41,172 nucleotides of DNA from Deltaproteobacteria bacterium (GTDB lineage Bacteria > Desulfobacterota > Binatia > Binatales > Binataceae): NCBI GenBank assembly GCA_021817345.1, contig JAKAVC010000021.1, forward strand, positions 16,097-57,268, read 5' to 3'. How positions within the stretch are numbered: the first letter of the stretch is position 1; each line of letters starts with the position of its first letter. The position numbers and the translations under genes are program-made. Of the stretch, positions 7,003 to 31,983 are shown one piece after another. The notes beneath the pieces were generated by a model. The model was not told the DNA's origin. It ran no database searches and worked only from the letters and a program-made list of their open reading frames with translations.

Positions 7003-7758
7003 ATGTGCACGCTTGCTATCTATTTTCGGATGAGCGACGAGTATCCGGTGATAATTGCCGCAAACCGCGACGAATTTCTCGACCGCCCGGCCGTTTCGCC
7101 GACAACGCTATGCGAAAATCCCCACGTCGTCGGCGGCCGGGACCTGCGCGCGGGAGGGACGTGGCTCGGAATCAACCAGCACGGGCTCGTCGCGGGGTTG
7201 CTCAACCGGCGTTCCGAGCAAAACGATCCCGCCCGCCGCTCGCGCGGGCTTTTATGCCTCGACGCGCTCAGGTTCTCGCGTGCGGACGAAGCGGCGCGTT
7301 TCGTCGGCGAGCAGCGAAGCGCCGATTACAACCCGTTCAATCTGCTGATCGCGTCGCGCGACGCGACTTACGTTGCATACAATCACGCCGACCGAATCGA
7401 AATTGTCGAGCTGACGCCGGGGCTTCATCTGCTGACCAACCTGAACGTGGACGATTTCGAATGTCCGAAGATAAGCGCCTCTTACGAAAGGTTCGCCGAA
7501 CTCGGTTCCGACCCGGATTTTCTGCGCGATCCGGTAAGCCGGCGCGGCGAGCTCCGCCGCCTGCTCTCGGACCATCGCGTTCAGCTCGATCCGCGCAACG
7601 GGCGCCCTAACGCGCTATGCCTTCATCTGGACAGTTACGGAACCCGCTCCTCGAGCCTGATATTCCTTGGCAGAGAACCGGGCGTCGTAGAGCATTTCTT
7701 CGCCTCGGGAGCGCCGTGCAAGAGCGACTACGAGCGCGCTGTTGTGCCGCGGCGATGA
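7003..7758 (+). CDS. NRDE (TANGO2) family protein
   Basis: This 251-residue protein belongs to the NRDE/TANGO2 family. The product starts MCTLAIYF, placing Cys at residue 2 as in Ntn-type family members, and has the diagnostic IIAANRDEFLDRPA near residues 20-33. It then shows the conserved GGTWLGIN segment and the GLLNRR stretch. Bacterial members are cytosolic, and the biochemical role is unsettled; the animal homologue is linked to heme or lipid handling. The ATG at 7003 is chosen because it yields the conserved N-terminal Cys and has AAGGA about 7 nt upstream. A longer reading from 6856 adds unrelated sequence. It is divergent from the FAD oxidoreductase across about 200 nt and precedes the peptidyl-prolyl isomerase gene by 102 nt. 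Confidence 0.9.
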   Translation: MCTLAIYFRMSDEYPVIIAANRDEFLDRPAVSPTTLCENPHVVGGRDLRAGGTWLGINQHGLVAGLLNRRSEQNDPARRSRGLLCLDALRFSRADEAARFVGEQRSADYNPFNLLIASRDATYVAYNHADRIEIVELTPGLHLLTNLNVDDFECPKISASYERFAELGSDPDFLRDPVSRRGELRRLLSDHRVQLDPRNGRPNALCLHLDSYGTRSSSLIFLGREPGVVEHFFASGAPCKSDYERAVVPRR

Positions 7759-7860
7759 GCCCGTGCGCTCGGATTCGGGGCACAAAAGGAGGCCGGCACA
7801 AATCGAAGCGAGCCGGATATCGAGGCGGCAGCGAGCGGGAAAGCGAGAGAGTGTGAAACA

Positions 7861-8919
7861 GTGAAAACCGAAGTAGCCAGAATTAAGCGGAAGGTTCCGA
7901 TGGCCGCCACTATCGCGATTCTGGTTTTGCTCGCGGCAGCGCGCGCACGCGCCCAGCAGATAGGACAATCGGGGCTTACCTGGCAGCAGCGCTATCTCGG
8001 CATACTTCCGCTCGTCAAGTCGAATCCGAAGGACCCGGTGATGGTGACGGTCAACGGCGCTCCGATAACCGCCGACCAGGTCCGCGATTATGCGAAAACC
8101 GAGCAGCGGATGCTGAATGCGACCACCGAGCTTGAGTTGAGAAAGACGGTTAGCGACGCGACCGAGAGCCTGATCAACCGCGAACTGCTCCTGCAGGAGG
8201 CCGAGCGCCGGCATATTACGGTGCCCGCAGGCGAGGTTGCCGAACGCGCCCGCCAGTTCGAAATCCAGGGGCTCAGCGGACAGACGCTTTCGAGCGGCGG
8301 AGCTCCCGACCAGGTGCTGCTCGATCAGGTGCGCGGCTCGATGGAGATAGAGAAGATGCTCGACGCCGAGTTTCGCGCGCACAACGTGGCGCCGACCGAA
8401 AAGGAAATCCGCCAATACTACGAGCATCACAAGGATCTGTTCGTGCAGAATCCGGGCGAGGTTCGTCTGTCACATATCGCGGTGAAGCTTCCGCCCAACC
8501 CGACCAAGGCGCAGAAGGACGCGGCGTGGAAGAAGATCAACCAGTTGCGGCGCGAGGCGGAAAAGAGCAAGGACTTCGCGGCGCTCGCCCGCAAATACTC
8601 GGAAGATTCCGCCTCCGCGAGCAAGGGCGGCGATCTCGGCTACTTTCGCAAGGGCGAACTGCCGCCGGTGGTCGACAAGATAGCGTTCTCGACCAGGCTC
8701 GGGCATCTCTCGCCGATAATCGAATCGAACCTTGGCTTCAGCTTCTTCAAGGTGACCGCGCGTCGTGGCCAGACCTACGCGCCGTTTAACGCGGTCAAGT
8801 CGCAGATCGCGATCGCGCTGCTCCAATACAACCAGGAGCGCGTGGTCAGGGATCTTGTCAAAAAGCTCGCGAAGAAGGCCCGCATAAGGTTCCATCGATT
8901 GCCGAACGCACCCGCGTAG
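7861..8919 (+). CDS. Periplasmic peptidyl-prolyl cis-trans isomerase (SurA/PpiC type)
   Basis: This 352-residue protein has an N-terminal export signal (charged start, then MAATIAILVLLAAARARAQ). A SurA-like chaperone region follows, with VNGAPITADQVRDYAK around 60-75. A parvulin domain runs about 195-310, seen in VRLSHIAVKLP, FAALARKYSEDSASASKGGDLGYF and the GFSFFKV ending. Such proteins assist folding of outer-membrane proteins in the periplasm. The GTG at 7861 is used because it supplies the basic n-region (KTEVARIKRK) of the signal peptide; the ATG at 7900 has GGAAGG upstream and is a credible alternative with a weaker signal peptide. The gene is convergent with the QueC-like gene, and the intervening 356 nt holds a repeat element. 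Confidence 0.9.
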   Translation: MKTEVARIKRKVPMAATIAILVLLAAARARAQQIGQSGLTWQQRYLGILPLVKSNPKDPVMVTVNGAPITADQVRDYAKTEQRMLNATTELELRKTVSDATESLINRELLLQEAERRHITVPAGEVAERARQFEIQGLSGQTLSSGGAPDQVLLDQVRGSMEIEKMLDAEFRAHNVAPTEKEIRQYYEHHKDLFVQNPGEVRLSHIAVKLPPNPTKAQKDAAWKKINQLRREAEKSKDFAALARKYSEDSASASKGGDLGYFRKGELPPVVDKIAFSTRLGHLSPIIESNLGFSFFKVTARRGQTYAPFNAVKSQIAIALLQYNQERVVRDLVKKLAKKARIRFHRLPNAPA

Positions 8920-9275: not shown

Positions 9276-9968
9276 CTAAACGGCAGGCGGACGGCGTGCG
9301 TAACGGGTCGGGTCGGGCACCCCGGCCTTGCGAAATCCCTCGATCCGCTCGGCGCACTTCGTGCAGGTGCCGCAATGGATTCCGCGCTCCGGCCGCGCGC
9401 ATGAAAGCGTTAGCTCCAGGGGAAGTCCCCTGCCCCGCAGTATCACCTGCGCCTTGGTGAACCCGATATACGGCGCGACGACGCGAAGCTTGAGCGCAAG
9501 TCCGAGTTCCGCGGTCTGCTCGAAGGAGCGGAAGAATTCCGGGCGTGCGTCGGGAAACGGATTGCTGTCGAGCGGCGCGAGCGCGATCTCGCCGATCCGG
9601 TTCGCCGCGCAAAACACCGCGGCCTTGGTCAAAAGGCTCAGGTTGCGCCCCGGGATATAATTCGACGATACCGCGGCGTGATAGCCGGGAACGTTGACGC
9701 CGGTAACGCTCCAATGCTCCGGCACGACGTCCGTTACCGGCAGCGACAGGACCGCAAGTTCCTCGATATTTGGAAGCTTGAGAGCCTTCAGGAATCGGCC
9801 GAGGACTTTCATCTCCTCGGGCTCCCATTTGAGCCCCGCGATGACGTAAACGGGGAAGACCCGGCGATGGCGGCGGGCGAACTCCGCAAGCATCACCGAA
9901 CTGTCCAGACCACCGCTCGCAAGGACGGCGATCCGCGAACGCACGGGTGAGATTCGATACTGCTTCAC
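9276..9968 (-). CDS. QueC-like 7-cyano-7-deazaguanine synthase family protein
   Basis: This 230-residue ATP-pyrophosphatase has the PP-loop SGGLDSS at 18-24, the family segment YIPGRNLSLLTKAA at about 104-117, and a zinc-site Cys set at C190, C199, C202 and C205 within SCARPERGIHCGTCTKC. QueC converts 7-carboxy-7-deazaguanine to preQ0 in queuosine and related pathways. Divergent features are NPFPDARPEFF where QueC usually has a YxDCRxEF-type stretch, and no obvious FDYGQ segment, so the substrate may differ. The gene begins with GTG at 9968, 25 nt after the SDR stop, as the last gene of the ntrY/lpxC cluster. No queD, queE or queF is visible nearby. I am confident of the family and less so of the exact reaction. 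Confidence 0.78.
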   Translation of the reverse strand: MKQYRISPVRSRIAVLASGGLDSSVMLAEFARRHRRVFPVYVIAGLKWEPEEMKVLGRFLKALKLPNIEELAVLSLPVTDVVPEHWSVTGVNVPGYHAAVSSNYIPGRNLSLLTKAAVFCAANRIGEIALAPLDSNPFPDARPEFFRSFEQTAELGLALKLRVVAPYIGFTKAQVILRGRGLPLELTLSCARPERGIHCGTCTKCAERIEGFRKAGVPDPTRYARRPPAV

Positions 9969-9993: not shown

Positions 9994-10728
9994 TCAGGCG
10001 AGCAGGCGTCCGCCGTCGAGCATCAGGGTCGCGCCGGTCGCAAAGTCGGTCCCCTCGCAGAAGAAAAGCACCGCGCGCGCGACGTCCTCCGGCGAGCCCA
10101 TCCGCTTGACCAGCGTGCCCTCGACGAGTCTCCCGATTTCCGCGGGGTCGTAATCTTCAGGCGCCAGCACAGGGCCGAGCGCGACGCAGTTGACCTGCAC
10201 CTCGGGGGCCAATTCCTTGGCAAGCACGCGAGTCAGGCCGATGAGGCCGGTCTTTGAGACAGTGTACGGCAGATAGTTACGATACGGGCGCACGCCGGCC
10301 CAATCGCCGATATTGACTATTTTGCCCGCGCCCTGACGGCGCATCGCGGGCGCCGCGAATTTCGCCAAGAAAAACGGCGCCTTCAGGTTGGTATCGAGAT
10401 TTCGATCCCAGTCCTCTTCGGTAATTTCTTCGAATTTTCGCCGGAAAAAGATCGACGCGGAATTCACCACGATATCGAGACGTCCGAACGCTCCAAGCAC
10501 GTCGGCCACCATCGTTTCGATTTCCGAAACCTTCTCGAGGTCGGCCCGAAACGCGCGCGCCGCAGCCCCGCTTGAGGTGATTTCGGCGACGACCGCCTCG
10601 GCTTCGGCCCTGGAGCTTCGATAATGCACCGCCACGGACGCGCTGCGGCGCGCGAATGCGAGCGCAATCGTCCTGCCGACCCTGCGACCGGCCCCGGTTA
10701 TGAGCGCAACCCTCCCCTGGAGTTCCAT
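9994..10728 (-). CDS. SDR oxidoreductase resembling pteridine reductase (PTR1/FolM type)
   Basis: This 244-residue short-chain dehydrogenase has the nucleotide motif TGAGRRVG at 11-18, the NADPH-discriminating stretch HYRSS at 35-39, NSAS at 89-92, and the active-site pair Y155/K159 in YTVSK. Where classical SDRs have Ser, it has D142, exactly 13 residues before the Tyr, as in PTR1 (Asp/Tyr/Lys). The arginine-bearing GAGRR and the HYRSSRAEAEA stretch also resemble pteridine reductases. The likely role is NADPH-dependent reduction of a pterin or dihydrofolate, but generic annotation would call it FabG-like. It lies 30 nt after the receiver-LpxC gene and 25 nt before the QueC-like gene, so it is probably in their operon. 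Confidence 0.85.
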   Translation of the reverse strand: MELQGRVALITGAGRRVGRTIALAFARRSASVAVHYRSSRAEAEAVVAEITSSGAAARAFRADLEKVSEIETMVADVLGAFGRLDIVVNSASIFFRRKFEEITEEDWDRNLDTNLKAPFFLAKFAAPAMRRQGAGKIVNIGDWAGVRPYRNYLPYTVSKTGLIGLTRVLAKELAPEVQVNCVALGPVLAPEDYDPAEIGRLVEGTLVKRMGSPEDVARAVLFFCEGTDFATGATLMLDGGRLLA

Positions 10729-10758: not shown

Positions 10759-12042
10759 CTACAGCTTTAGCGACTTCTCGATCGCTTTGACCAGGGCGAG
10801 GTTGTCCGAATGGCCGGTCTTCGAGGCGGTTATATGACCATGAACTGGTCGGCCGAGCAGGTACAAGTCGCCCATCAGGTCGAGCACCTTATGGCGCGCG
10901 AATTCATCGGCGAAACGAAGCTTCGTATTAACGACTTTTTCGTCGTCCACCAGAATGACGTTGTCGAGCCGCCCGCCGCTGGCGAGTCCCATCTCGGAGA
11001 GCTTGGTGAATTCACGCACAAAGCCGAAGGTGCGCGCGGGCGCAATCTCGCGCACGTAGTCGGAGGTCGAAGCCAACTCGAAATGAACGCGCTGCACTCC
11101 GATAGGTTTCGGATAGTCCAGCGTATAGTCGATTATCAGGCGTTCGGCCGGCTCGATGCGGATAAATTCGCCGCCCTCGCGTTCCTTGCCGATCACGATC
11201 GTCTCGCGCACTCGGATCGGTTCGAGGTTTGCGTCCTGGTCCTCGATGCCCGCCGCCTCCAGGTGGCGGCAGAACTCCAGCGCCGAGCCGTCCAGCGCGG
11301 GAATTTCGTCGTCGGTCTTGATGAGCAGATTGTTTATTGAGAAAGCGTGGAGCGCAGACATCAGATGCTCCACGGTCCGGACCGAACGGCCGCCTTTTGA
11401 GAGCGTGGTGTTGTACCCGGTCTCGGTTACGTTTTCCAGCGCGACCGGGATATTCGATTCGTCAGCAACCGAGGCGAAAACGATTCCCGAGCCTTGCGGC
11501 GCAGGATGGAGTATCACTCCGGTCTTGAGCCCGGTATGGAGTCCCTGGCCGCCCATCACTATCGGCCGCGCGACGGTTCGCTGCCGAAATTCACCAGCGG
11601 TGCGGACGCGGTTCCTGCGTCTCGGTGCCGGCGTTTCTCCCGCCGGCCATGCGGCGTCAGCCGGCGCCGGTCCCGCGCTTCCGCCGTCGAGCACGCGCGA
11701 GATCGAGGCGAGCAGCCCGCTCATCGAGAACGGCTTCTGGATAAAATCCGCCGCGCCCAATTTGGTCGCCGCGACCGCGCTCTGGATATTGGCGTGGCCG
11801 GAGATCATTATCACGGGAAGCGCCGGCCGTTCGGACTTGATCCGGCGCAGCAGTTCGATCCCGTCGACCTCGGGCATCCAGACGTCGAGCAGCACCAGAG
11901 CCGGAGTCTCGCGTTCGAGCAACTCCATCACGCCCGAGGCATCCCCGGTATCGACGACGCGAAACCCTTCGTCGGTCAGTATTCCGCGCAGAGAGGACCG
12001 AATCCGCTCCTCGTCATCCACCACCAAAACAGTATCGTTCAC
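10759..12042 (-). CDS. lpxC: Response-regulator receiver domain fused to LpxC deacetylase
   Basis: This 427-residue protein combines two complete modules. Residues 1-120 are a receiver domain of NtrX type: acidic pair D9/D10, phospho-acceptor D53 in LLDVWMPEVDG, S81 in MISGH and K103 in QKPF. After a Pro/Arg-rich linker (about 121-151), residues 152-427 form a full LpxC, the zinc enzyme that deacetylates UDP-3-O-acyl-GlcNAc and commits it to lipid A synthesis. The zinc ligands are visible as H226 (VEHLMSALH), H384 and D388 (RHKVLD). E225 and H411 (TGHSDN) match the catalytic Glu and His. Classical LpxC is about 300 residues with no receiver. It starts at GTG 12042, 51 nt after the NtrY-like kinase gene. 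The frame is unbroken through the junction, so it is a true fusion in the reading given. Confidence 0.95.
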   Translation of the reverse strand: MNDTVLVVDDEERIRSSLRGILTDEGFRVVDTGDASGVMELLERETPALVLLDVWMPEVDGIELLRRIKSERPALPVIMISGHANIQSAVAATKLGAADFIQKPFSMSGLLASISRVLDGGSAGPAPADAAWPAGETPAPRRRNRVRTAGEFRQRTVARPIVMGGQGLHTGLKTGVILHPAPQGSGIVFASVADESNIPVALENVTETGYNTTLSKGGRSVRTVEHLMSALHAFSINNLLIKTDDEIPALDGSALEFCRHLEAAGIEDQDANLEPIRVRETIVIGKEREGGEFIRIEPAERLIIDYTLDYPKPIGVQRVHFELASTSDYVREIAPARTFGFVREFTKLSEMGLASGGRLDNVILVDDEKVVNTKLRFADEFARHKVLDLMGDLYLLGRPVHGHITASKTGHSDNLALVKAIEKSLKL

Positions 12043-12093: not shown

Positions 12094-14325
12094 TCAGCCC
12101 GCAGCCTGGGAGAATTGAGGGTCTTTTACCGGAAATTCCAGGATGAATCTACTTCCGCGCGGCGGGTTGTCCGCAACCCGGACGAAACCGCGATGGTCGG
12201 TCACGATGGCGGAAACGATCGCGAGACCAAGCCCGGTTCCGCCCTTTTTACTGGAAAAATAGGGCTCGAAAATGCGGGTTCGCAGCCGCGGGTCGATTCC
12301 CGGCCCGTTGTCACGAACCTCTAGCGTTACCACGCCGCTTTCCCGGTCCAGCCAAGTGCTGACTTCGACCCGCGGACGGTCGCCGTTATGACTGTTCGCG
12401 CCGCTCGCGGCGGTGACGGCGTTGTCGAGCAGGTTCACGATCACGCGCTTCATCGCCTCGCGATCGATCCGGATCTGTGGCACGTCGGGGTCGCGCGCGA
12501 GAACGAACTCGACTTCGGGATGCGCGCCCTGGAAACTCGCGACCGTTTCGGAAACCAGCAGATTAAGATCGCCCGGCACCGGGCTCAGATGAGGCATCCG
12601 GGCAAAGGCTGAGAACTCGTTGACGAGATGCTTGAGGTCCTGCACCTCGCTGATAATCGTGCGGGTGCACTCTTCGAGCAGTGCGCCGTCGTTGCCGAGC
12701 TTCGGCCCGAGTTGCCGCCGAAGCCGCTCGGCGGAGAGCTGAATCGGGGTCAGCGGATTTTTGATCTCGTGCGCGATTCGGCGGGCGACTTCGCGCCACG
12801 CCTCCATCCGCTCGACTTTCGCGATCTGGCTCACATCCTCGAAGAACAGCACTGAACCGAGAAACGGATCGGTCTCGTCGCCTATGGGGCTTGCCGTGAT
12901 CATCAGTTCCGCCTCGGCTCCGTCGGTCTCGAGCTTTACCGAGGATCGTACCTCGTGCGGGGCTGGAACCGGCGCGAGCAGGTCGTCCAGCACCGCGGCC
13001 AGCGCGGGCTTCAGCACGTCGCGATAATGGCGGCCCGCAGCCTCGTCCACCGCGACTCCGAGCAGCCGCTCGGCGAACGAGTTCATCGTGGTGACGTGCC
13101 CCCGCTGATCGAGTCCGACGACGCCCGCCGAAACGTTTTTCAGCAGCGTCTCGGTATAGCGGCGCCGCCGTTCCAGTTCCGCATGCGACGCCCTCAAATC
13201 CGCCGTCATCTGGTTGAAGGAGATGACCAGGTGCCCGATTTCATCGTCGCCGACCGGCGGGATCGTCCAGGTCAGGTCGCCCGCCGCGATCGCATGCGTG
13301 CCCTGCAGCAGCCGTTTGATCGGCACGGTGATTCCGCGCGATAGATACATCCCGAACCAGCTCGCGAGCAGCACGACGACCAACCCGATCAGGACCAGGG
13401 CAAGGATGTAGCTGTTCAGGATGGGCTGCTTGAGAATCCGCAATTGAAAATAATCTTCCGAGATCCGCGAGATGTCCGCGGCGCGCGAGGCGAGACTCTT
13501 CGGCAGGTAGTAATCGACGACAATCGCGCCCAGCACCTTGTCCGAGTCGGGGCTTGCGTAGATGGGAGCGCTGCCGCGGATTACGTCGGATTTGCCGAAA
13601 CGGTCGGTGCGCGCCACGGCCCGCCCTTTCAGGGTCGCGCCGATGATGGGCGAATCGGGAGACACGCCGATACCGGTGGGAGTGCGCGGGCTCAGCGCGA
13701 TCAGGATGAGCTTGCGGTCGGCGGAGAAAACCTCGATGGTTCCAAGGTTGTACTCCTGCTGATGCTCCTCGATGAACTTCTTCAAGTCGGCGCGCCGCTC
13801 GGGCGCGAGAAGACCGCGTTCGCCGACCTCCTCGGCGAGTGCGCGGGCAAAATGCGTCGCGTTGTTCGCCGAGTTCAGGTAGTAGATTTTTGCGATCTCG
13901 AGCGAGTCGTTCAGCACCTGCTCGTACTCGGGATTGAACCAGCTATCCACGTCCGCATGCAGAAACGCACCCGATACGTAGAGCAGGAAAGCGCTCGGAA
14001 CCAGCGCCACCGCGATAAATCCGAGCACCAGGCGGACCTGGAACTTTGACCCGATCAGTCCCCGGCGCCGCTCGAAGATCGCCTTGGCGAGGTTGCGTCC
14101 GACCAGGTACAGCAGCAGGCCGAGAAGCAGGAAGCTCAGGTTGAACAGGGTTATTACGACCAGGTTCGAGACGAGCGAGGTATGCTTGCTCAGCGGCGGC
14201 AGTTCGGTCTGCGCGAGCACGAACGCAACCAGCGTTACCCCCGCCACACCGACGGCGATAAGCTCGCGCCGGCGGCGCTTAAGCTCGGCGCGACGCAGCG
14301 CGTTGTCCCTGGATTCCTCGGCCAC
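12094..14325 (-). CDS. ntrY: NtrY-like membrane sensor histidine kinase
   Basis: The 743-residue kinase has four predicted membrane segments (about 22-40, 52-76, 98-120 and 303-328). An extracytoplasmic sensor region lies at 121-302, a HAMP domain at about 329-380 and a PAS domain at about 390-500. The dimerisation/phosphorylation helix carries H519 in RRIAHEIKNPLTPIQL. The ATPase domain shows NLLDNA (631-636), DNGPGID (672-678) and GGTGLGLAIV (695-704). This is the NtrY architecture. NtrY normally phosphorylates NtrX, a receiver-AAA+-Fis activator; here the next gene is the receiver-LpxC fusion. It starts with GTG at 14325, 3 nt after the DUF2905 stop, with GAGG in the end of that gene as the ribosome site, so translation is probably coupled. 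The signal it senses is not evident. Confidence 0.93.
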   Translation of the reverse strand: MAEESRDNALRRAELKRRRRELIAVGVAGVTLVAFVLAQTELPPLSKHTSLVSNLVVITLFNLSFLLLGLLLYLVGRNLAKAIFERRRGLIGSKFQVRLVLGFIAVALVPSAFLLYVSGAFLHADVDSWFNPEYEQVLNDSLEIAKIYYLNSANNATHFARALAEEVGERGLLAPERRADLKKFIEEHQQEYNLGTIEVFSADRKLILIALSPRTPTGIGVSPDSPIIGATLKGRAVARTDRFGKSDVIRGSAPIYASPDSDKVLGAIVVDYYLPKSLASRAADISRISEDYFQLRILKQPILNSYILALVLIGLVVVLLASWFGMYLSRGITVPIKRLLQGTHAIAAGDLTWTIPPVGDDEIGHLVISFNQMTADLRASHAELERRRRYTETLLKNVSAGVVGLDQRGHVTTMNSFAERLLGVAVDEAAGRHYRDVLKPALAAVLDDLLAPVPAPHEVRSSVKLETDGAEAELMITASPIGDETDPFLGSVLFFEDVSQIAKVERMEAWREVARRIAHEIKNPLTPIQLSAERLRRQLGPKLGNDGALLEECTRTIISEVQDLKHLVNEFSAFARMPHLSPVPGDLNLLVSETVASFQGAHPEVEFVLARDPDVPQIRIDREAMKRVIVNLLDNAVTAASGANSHNGDRPRVEVSTWLDRESGVVTLEVRDNGPGIDPRLRTRIFEPYFSSKKGGTGLGLAIVSAIVTDHRGFVRVADNPPRGSRFILEFPVKDPQFSQAAG

Positions 14326-30558: not shown

Positions 30559-31908
30559 TTATCTGCGACGTCCGCCCAGGAAGGCGAAGTCTCCGAATTC
30601 GTTGACGCTCAGGCTGCCGCTGAACATGGGATGGCCGGACAATTCCCTCGCGCCGGCTCGATATGCGATCCGCGCCGGCCCGGCTTTGATAAAAGCTCCG
30701 CCTGGAGCGAGAGCGTACAGCCGCTCACGCCCGTAAGCGTCCTGCGCGCCAAAGATCATCGCTCCCGAACCCGTAAGCAACGGATTGCCGAACCACCGAA
30801 GCGGCGCTCCCCAAGGGTTCAACTGCCCTCGCCTTGCGCGCACTTGGGCGCGCTCGCGCGCGACCACCAGCAGAAGCGGAACGTGGTGGACCGAGGCAAG
30901 CACGGCCGTCGTCGCGTCGCGCATCAAACCGGGCCGCCCGAGCGACAGATGGTCGATTCGGCCGGCCTCCGTGCGTTCGCCCGCCGATAGAACGCGCTCG
31001 AGCACGCCCTTGCGAAAAATGAACAGCGCCTCGCCGGTTCCGGTCCGCGCGCTAAAGGCAACTGGACCGTCATAGGGAAGCGCGGCGGGCAGGCCAAAAT
31101 CGACGTAGCGCTTGCCGCCGTGCGGGGACCGCCGGGCCACCGCAAGCTCGTCAATACCGCTGCGGCGCGAAACCGTCACCAGTGCCGGCACGTCGTGAGC
31201 CGGGTCGGAGTGCCGTTCCCAAGGCTCGATCCACGCCTTTAAGACTATTTTGCCAAGGCCGGCGAACTGCTGGCTGCCGAAACCGAAGGCCGCGATCACA
31301 TGGCCGTGCGCCGTCAGCGCGCCGGTGCGGGCCAGGCACGACAATCTGTCGTTCGCGTAAAGAAAAACCGAGTCGTGCCCGGCGGCGTCGGCGGCGACGA
31401 AGGCAATCTCCCCATCGCGGCCGGCTACGGGACGCGGGTCAACCTTAAGGACCGGCGAGCATTGCGGCGCGGCAACCGTCGCGGCGTCGAAGGCTGGTGT
31501 GACTCGAGAGCCGCGTGCGGCATTCGGATCGCCTATGTAAAGATGCCAGCGATCGTTCTCAAAGCCGAACGTTGTATCGGCGGCAAAGAGCACCCTGCCG
31601 TCACTCATCATGTCCGGAAGGCCTAAATCGACGACACGGCCCCCGTTCAATCGCGTTCCGACCGCCGCAATCGTAACCAGTCGGCCTTCGCGGTCGTTGG
31701 CGTAGAGCGTTGAGACGCGGTCGCGCTCCAGGGCGGCGCGGCCCAGGCCTTGCAGGCTGAGCGCGAACGCATTTGCCCTTCGCACTGCCGCAAGCTGGGT
31801 TGTGCCAATAAGAAGCAGAGTCAGCAGCAGATAAAACCGTCGCCCGGCTGACAGCAGGCATACTTTTGTGGTCGGCGGGCTCAGGGCCGCGTGTTTCGCA
31901 GGTATCAT
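30559..31908 (-). CDS. Exported repeat (propeller-like) protein of unknown function
   Basis: This protein of about 449 residues has a hydrophobic export segment (FYLLLTLLLIGTTQLAAV) and then irregular repeats of about 50-60 residues. These alternate statements such as GRVLFAADT, GEIAFVAADAAG, GPVAFSARTG, GAMIFGAQDAYG and GDFAFLGG with glycine-rich turns, resembling exported propeller-type proteins of deltaproteobacteria. I recognise no catalytic motif. The ATG at 31908 has GGAGA just upstream. Alternatively a GTG at 31983 directly abuts the stop of the DUF1329 gene (TGAGTG), which would permit coupling. It follows the DUF1329 gene on the same strand and may share its transcript. Function is not assigned. 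Confidence 0.65.
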   Translation of the reverse strand: MIPAKHAALSPPTTKVCLLSAGRRFYLLLTLLLIGTTQLAAVRRANAFALSLQGLGRAALERDRVSTLYANDREGRLVTIAAVGTRLNGGRVVDLGLPDMMSDGRVLFAADTTFGFENDRWHLYIGDPNAARGSRVTPAFDAATVAAPQCSPVLKVDPRPVAGRDGEIAFVAADAAGHDSVFLYANDRLSCLARTGALTAHGHVIAAFGFGSQQFAGLGKIVLKAWIEPWERHSDPAHDVPALVTVSRRSGIDELAVARRSPHGGKRYVDFGLPAALPYDGPVAFSARTGTGEALFIFRKGVLERVLSAGERTEAGRIDHLSLGRPGLMRDATTAVLASVHHVPLLLVVARERAQVRARRGQLNPWGAPLRWFGNPLLTGSGAMIFGAQDAYGRERLYALAPGGAFIKAGPARIAYRAGARELSGHPMFSGSLSVNEFGDFAFLGGRRR

Positions 31909-31983
31909 TCTCCAAACCTTGCTGAATAGCCGCGCAAAAGCCGTACCATCGACACGCGGCCCTGAATCGGGTTGTCGCGGCAC

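Follow-up and report, generated by a model that had tools for sequence, protein, structure and literature searches.

A receiver-LpxC fusion protein of NtrX descent as a candidate for direct two-component control of lipid A synthesis in Binatia and related lineages

LpxC is an essential enzyme, catalysing the step at which the cell becomes committed to outer-membrane lipid, and the locus described here bears on how bacteria other than Enterobacteria set its activity. In E. coli the enzyme is regulated by proteolysis, its C-terminal tail carrying the FtsH degron. Regulators acting on the gene have been described in other bacteria. In R. sphaeroides NtrYX lowers lpxC expression, the mutant having 8.8-fold more transcript and about twofold more LPS, and lpxC expression is likewise lowered by NtrYX in C. 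crescentus (PMC12444477); the effect in R. sphaeroides is indirect, with no NtrX site at lpxC (PMC7240162). In D. vulgaris lpxC is the single target of the regulator DVU2934; S. fumaroxidans has lpxC immediately upstream of the operon of the orthologous regulator (PMC3333781). The fusion of a receiver domain with LpxC reported here is real, widespread and new to the literature searched, where no description of a receiver-LpxC or NtrX-LpxC fusion was found (a mention in review tables of response-regulator outputs is possible); the first-pass annotation had likewise not placed such a regulator among known systems.

The window, that is, the whole stretch of 41,172 nucleotides analysed, contains the fusion gene and the neighbours considered below:

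10759..12042, minus strand: rec-lpxC fusion gene, 427 aa, with a GTG start at 12042 and the stop at 10759; the sole lpxC of the genome
11689..12042, minus strand: NtrX-type receiver, residues 1-118 (Pfam PF00072, PDB receiver matches, NCBIfam NtrX, conservation)
11602..11688, minus strand: flexible Pro/Ala/Arg-rich linker, about residues 119-147 (AlphaFold2 pLDDT <50 at 122-145; linkers of relatives)
10762..11601, minus strand: LpxC deacetylase domain, about residues 148-427 (PF03331, TIGR00325, Foldseek, residue conservation)
12094..14325, minus strand: NtrY-like membrane sensor histidine kinase, 743 aa, predicted phospho-acceptor His519 (NtrY_N (PF19312), HAMP, PAS, HisKA, HATPase_c)
9994..10728, minus strand: short-chain dehydrogenase/reductase gene, directly downstream of rec-lpxC with a gap of 30 bp
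9276..9968, minus strand: QueC-like gene, downstream of the dehydrogenase/reductase gene

The fusion protein of the window (P0001) matched the Pfam receiver family PF00072 at residues 5-114 (E=1.2e-31) and the LpxC family PF03331 at residues 154-421 (E=1e-85; 288 bits vs. a cut-off of 27), and it scored above the cut-off of the NCBIfam LpxC model TIGR00325 (257.2 vs. 187.25 bits). The receiver presents the acid pocket D9/D10, the phospho-acceptor D53, S81 and K103, whereas the LpxC part contains the zinc and catalytic residues E225, H226, H384, D388 and H411. The first-pass annotation had given the limits of the open reading frame exactly, its strand being established here as minus, and Pfam together with the sequence placed all of the residues that it had named, in both domains, at the positions it had assigned, in an LpxC that is complete. 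Its designation of the receiver as NtrX-type is backed by several comparisons. The best solved receivers were those of Brucella NtrX (4d6x and 5m7n) in the PDB search, and the best response-regulator model was NtrX (NF051870), against whose full length P0001 reached 118.6 bits, below the 600-bit cut-off, the sigma54 AAA+ and Fis domains being absent. In the receiver tree, which is short and poorly resolved in part, the fused receivers fell together with those of NtrX from lpxC-ntrY-ntrX clusters and away from seven other NtrC-type regulators of the window genome; the L131/L046 lineage might represent a second fusion. The lack of AAA+ and Fis modules, which had also been pointed out, is true of P0001, and decayed versions of both persist in relatives. 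By its matches P0001 is a member of LpxC, coming from NtrX by descent and not itself an NtrX, and we infer that it is an enzyme-output response regulator with LpxC as its output.

The genome of the window (3.54 Mb, 94% complete) encodes LpxA and LpxB, and a second LpxC, which the first-pass annotation had regarded as damaging to its reading, was absent from it in the PF03331 search. Since the fusion is the sole PF03331 match and LpxA and LpxB are present, it is very probably, on these gene contents, the working LpxC of the cell. Two LpxA-like genes occur in this genome (G000; C129:8213-8971 and C164:8715-9467), both above the TIGR01852 cut-off. Upstream of rec-lpxC, after a gap of 51 bp, lies the ntrY-like gene, which had gone unmentioned before; Pfam recognized in its product the membrane part NtrY_N, HAMP, PAS, HisKA with H519 and HATPase_c, the composition by which NtrY is identified. 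The downstream dehydrogenase/reductase gene is retained as a neighbour at most loci of the window's family. The QueC-like gene is probably co-transcribed with the rec-lpxC region and is thought to lie outside the signalling unit. Three further open reading frames of the window, all on the minus strand (7615-8430, 8470-8895 and 30559-31983; 271, 141 and 474 aa), gave no Pfam matches.

The source assembly is fragmented (176 contigs), which would suit a reading of the gene as a sequencing or assembly artefact at the junction, a danger already recognized in the first-pass annotation, or as two frames adjoining by chance. This is excluded by the recurrence of the same uninterrupted two-domain frame in well over 100 independently assembled genomes, some of them near-complete, and the probability of such an artefact is practically nil. 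The architecture search that had been proposed was run by sampling genomes across the phylum and then verifying the architectures, and it found the receiver-LpxC fusion in 68 of 297 genomes; named relatives carrying it include Candidatus Binataceae, Syntrophus and one Nitrospinaceae bacterium. Within the window's class (Binatia/Binatota) 138 of 145 sampled genomes matched the fusion, nearly all at full length; the remaining, partial matches often lay at the ends of contigs. A single genome of the class (80% complete) had an extra canonical LpxC. The fusion was the sole LpxC in 63 of the 66 fusion genomes tested. A canonical LpxC stood beside it in the other three (G208, G252 and G047; loci L119, L120 and L130), where the fusion may have an auxiliary role. 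Fused copies of family f38 are set apart by very long branches, and their role may be a different one. In the fusions of loci L009, L026 and L029, N-terminal extensions of 500-1000 aa were rejected as spurious open frames; no Pfam domain was found in the additional 500 aa of the L009 and L026 frames, and at both of these loci (also read as L152 and L153) a genuine NtrY gene overlaps the extension in another frame.

Conservation of the functional residues was nearly complete. All 79 receivers carry S/T81 and K103, and 78 of them also D9, D10 and D53; E225, H226, H384, D388 and H411 were conserved in all 80 fused LpxC domains. One receiver (L047:5941-7248) lacks its N-terminal half including D53, being decayed or mis-assembled. 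Four further positions in the LpxC domain (K242, C258, G175 and P335, numbering of P0001) do not vary among the 80 fused LpxCs, and stand-alone enzymes seldom or never have them; at position 242 the fused enzymes have K and the stand-alone enzymes an otherwise invariant E. These four residues are sequence-derived candidates for a receiver interface or for altered catalysis.

NtrY was found directly upstream of the fusion at 25/25 class loci with sufficient flank. Several families (f13, f15, f16, f29, f32 and f57) have the fusion away from NtrY, and where this is so a full-length NtrY usually occurs elsewhere in the genome and, with a single exception among the loci read, has no response regulator next to it; in f29 and f57 the best NtrY is just 29-34% identical. 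Loci L211-L219 and L221-L230 contain such NtrY-type kinases lacking a neighbouring response regulator, the receiver-LpxC of the same genomes being also orphan, and neither a kinase nor a shared gene was found in the neighbourhoods of the orphan fusions. A partnership of NtrY and the fusion in families where the genes are not adjacent would follow from this co-occurrence. As receivers bind their kinases and an integral-membrane NtrY is encoded next door, the receiver could instead tether LpxC to this membrane protein, lipid A synthesis then being regulated by location and not by activity; a precedent is Ght of N. meningitidis, which brings LpxC to the inner membrane independently of FtsH (PMC12444477). 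Docking would not need the strict conservation of D9, D10, D53, S/T81 and K103, however, and we regard control by location as quite unlikely.

Fourteen fusions from six families are longer (629-776 aa) and consist of a receiver, a sigma54 AAA+ domain, an AAA lid and LpxC, with a remnant of the HTH in 13 of them; NtrY is directly upstream at 9 of these 14 loci. In L113, for example, NCBIfam assigned residues 6-456 to NtrX and 468-740 to LpxC, with an NtrX score of 344.6 bits vs. the cut-off of 600. With nine stand-alone NtrX proteins as the reference, the AAA-bearing fusions had lost GAFTGA, the Walker B Asp-Glu pair and the arginine finger in 14/14 cases and retained Walker A, and the receiver residues were kept in 13/13. 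From the known functions of these motifs, activation of the sigma54 polymerase by such proteins seems hardly possible. At one locus (L122:5818-7983) the gene for this long form appears split inside the receiver into two open reading frames, by a frameshift or an assembly error. The decay of the AAA+ and HTH parts, which stem from the same ancestor as the receiver, along with the absence of an adjacent NtrY at most fusion loci outside the class, could mean that the receiver is likewise a relic, retained for folding or dimerisation after signalling was lost. Against this, the residues of the phospho-site have stayed invariant over deep divergence despite the decay of the neighbouring AAA+, and NtrY has been co-retained as an orphan kinase, which makes a relic highly unlikely.

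In the LpxC tree, a branch supported at 100/100 split all 80 fused domains from the 23 stand-alone LpxCs, a result repeated after removal of long branches and consistent with a single origin of the fusion. Placing the AAA-bearing forms in one clade was tried, and the AU test spoke against it (p-AU 0.02). Because these forms are not monophyletic, and because a de novo gain of AAA-Fis in the order found in NtrX is unlikely, several losses of AAA-Fis are the simpler explanation, and the favoured course from these trees would be one NtrX-LpxC fusion followed by several such losses; other orders of events, including re-fusion with an NtrX, are possible.

Relatives with unfused genes give an indication of the starting point. 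lpxC, ntrY and ntrX are neighbours at 9 of 23 such loci (L151, L176, L181, L186, L188, L189, L190 and L191, plus L179 with ntrX reversed), and lpxC and ntrY at five more, which suggests that NtrYX is a dedicated regulator of the envelope or lipid A in genomes with a canonical LpxC. Stand-alone NtrX was called at scores of at least 450 bits against the NtrX of L151 (996 bits against itself). By this threshold free NtrX was present in 5/5 unfused comparison genomes (489-515 bits), but just two of the 31 fusion genomes had it (G285, 501 bits; G208, 454 bits); the best scores in the remaining 29 (≤419 bits) were at the level of ordinary NtrC-type regulators. Since free NtrX is missing from most fusion genomes and NtrY is an orphan elsewhere, the simplest reading of these gene inventories is that the fused protein has replaced NtrX as the partner of NtrY. 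The lpxC-ntrY-ntrX clusters of relatives, the decayed NtrX-LpxC intermediates and the 29 of 31 fusion genomes that lack a separate NtrX together make it reasonably probable that NtrX, through fusion with a neighbouring target gene and stepwise decay of its sigma54 and DNA-binding functions, was converted into the built-in post-translational regulator of the essential LpxC. In an ancestor with linked lpxC-ntrY-ntrX, ntrX and lpxC would have fused into a receiver-AAA+-Fis-LpxC protein; its sigma54 and DNA-binding middle would have decayed and been deleted several times, giving the receiver-LpxC form, which would then have supplanted both free NtrX and free LpxC.

Structure predictions were obtained for two homologues. 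AlphaFold2 gave for the first a pLDDT of 89.9 and a pTM of 0.89, with disorder confined to the linker (122-145), and for the second, in which the linker is 46 residues long and some 50 residues are disordered, a pTM of 0.82; the LpxC part matched Aquifex LpxC (2jt2) in Foldseek with a TM score of 0.94 by target length. Such pTM values would be too high, given the disordered linkers, if the two domains were freely arranged, and the models would thus imply a defined placement of the receiver on the LpxC domain.

Taken together, we assign a probability of about 0.68 to the reading that NtrY controls LpxC directly through phosphorylation of D53 in the fusion protein. The first-pass annotation had proposed that D53 phosphorylation tunes the activity or stability of the deacetylase; its premises on architecture, copy number and residues are borne out here, and an effect of phosphorylation on LpxC activity, stability or location is a prediction. 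The membrane kinase would sense the state of the envelope and autophosphorylate on His519, and the phosphate would move from there to D53; the receiver, docked on LpxC through the flexible linker, would then shift and change the output of LpxC post-translationally, in the simplest form by reshaping the active site or altering how accessible it is. By analogy with two alphaproteobacteria in which NtrYX lowers lpxC, we lean slightly toward phosphorylation restraining LpxC; a relief of inhibition as in CheB would give the opposite sign, with phosphorylation activating. A different use of the receiver is suggested by the C-terminus, where 11-20 residues follow N414 in fused LpxCs vs. 33-46 in 20 of 23 stand-alone ones, a loss of about 28 residues. 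As E. coli LpxC is controlled through proteolysis and the fused enzymes lack the degron-bearing tail, the receiver might set the lifetime of LpxC, its phosphorylation making or hiding a protease signal in replacement of the lost FtsH degron, in the manner of RssB and CpdR, receiver-based adaptors that act with ClpXP. No adaptor motif was identified, however, and the docking of the receiver on the LpxC domain in the models would suit control of activity equally well, so that control of lifetime appears unlikely. Direct phospho-control by NtrY, if true, would place LpxC, in single copy, under a two-component system across a whole class, and the findings suggest that lipid A synthesis is the target of NtrYX in the fusion lineages. 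They also offer an explanation for the recurrent association of NtrYX with lpxC, and the intermediates still extant illustrate a route by which a transcription factor may become the regulatory domain of an enzyme.

Compared with known systems, P0001 shares with LpxC (PF03331, TIGR00325) the full domain, the zinc and catalytic residues, the fold and the position as sole LpxC beside LpxA and LpxB, but differs from ordinary members in its N-terminal receiver, the loss of the C-terminal tail and a strongly supported branch of its own with its own invariant residues. With NtrX (NF051870) it has in common the receiver sequence and the gene order with NtrY, the receiver-AAA+-Fis scaffold being still visible in relatives, whereas a working sigma54 and DNA-binding output is lacking and an enzyme takes its place. 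The control of lpxC by NtrYX in Rhodobacter and Caulobacter and by DVU2934 in D. vulgaris involves the same or a comparable regulator family and the same enzyme; it is transcriptional there, in Rhodobacter even indirect, whereas P0001 unites regulator and enzyme in one protein. LpxC-FabZ bifunctional enzymes (NF009667) are likewise fusions of an LpxC gene, but join two metabolic enzymes without a signalling domain, and P0001 scored 211.6 bits against that model, below its cut-off of 465, the FabZ domain being absent. CheB, PleD/WspR and RpfG also combine a receiver with a catalytic domain; their outputs are enzymes of signalling or chemotaxis, whereas P0001 has as its output the enzyme that commits the cell to an essential biosynthetic pathway, attached to a receiver that descends from a decayed transcription factor.
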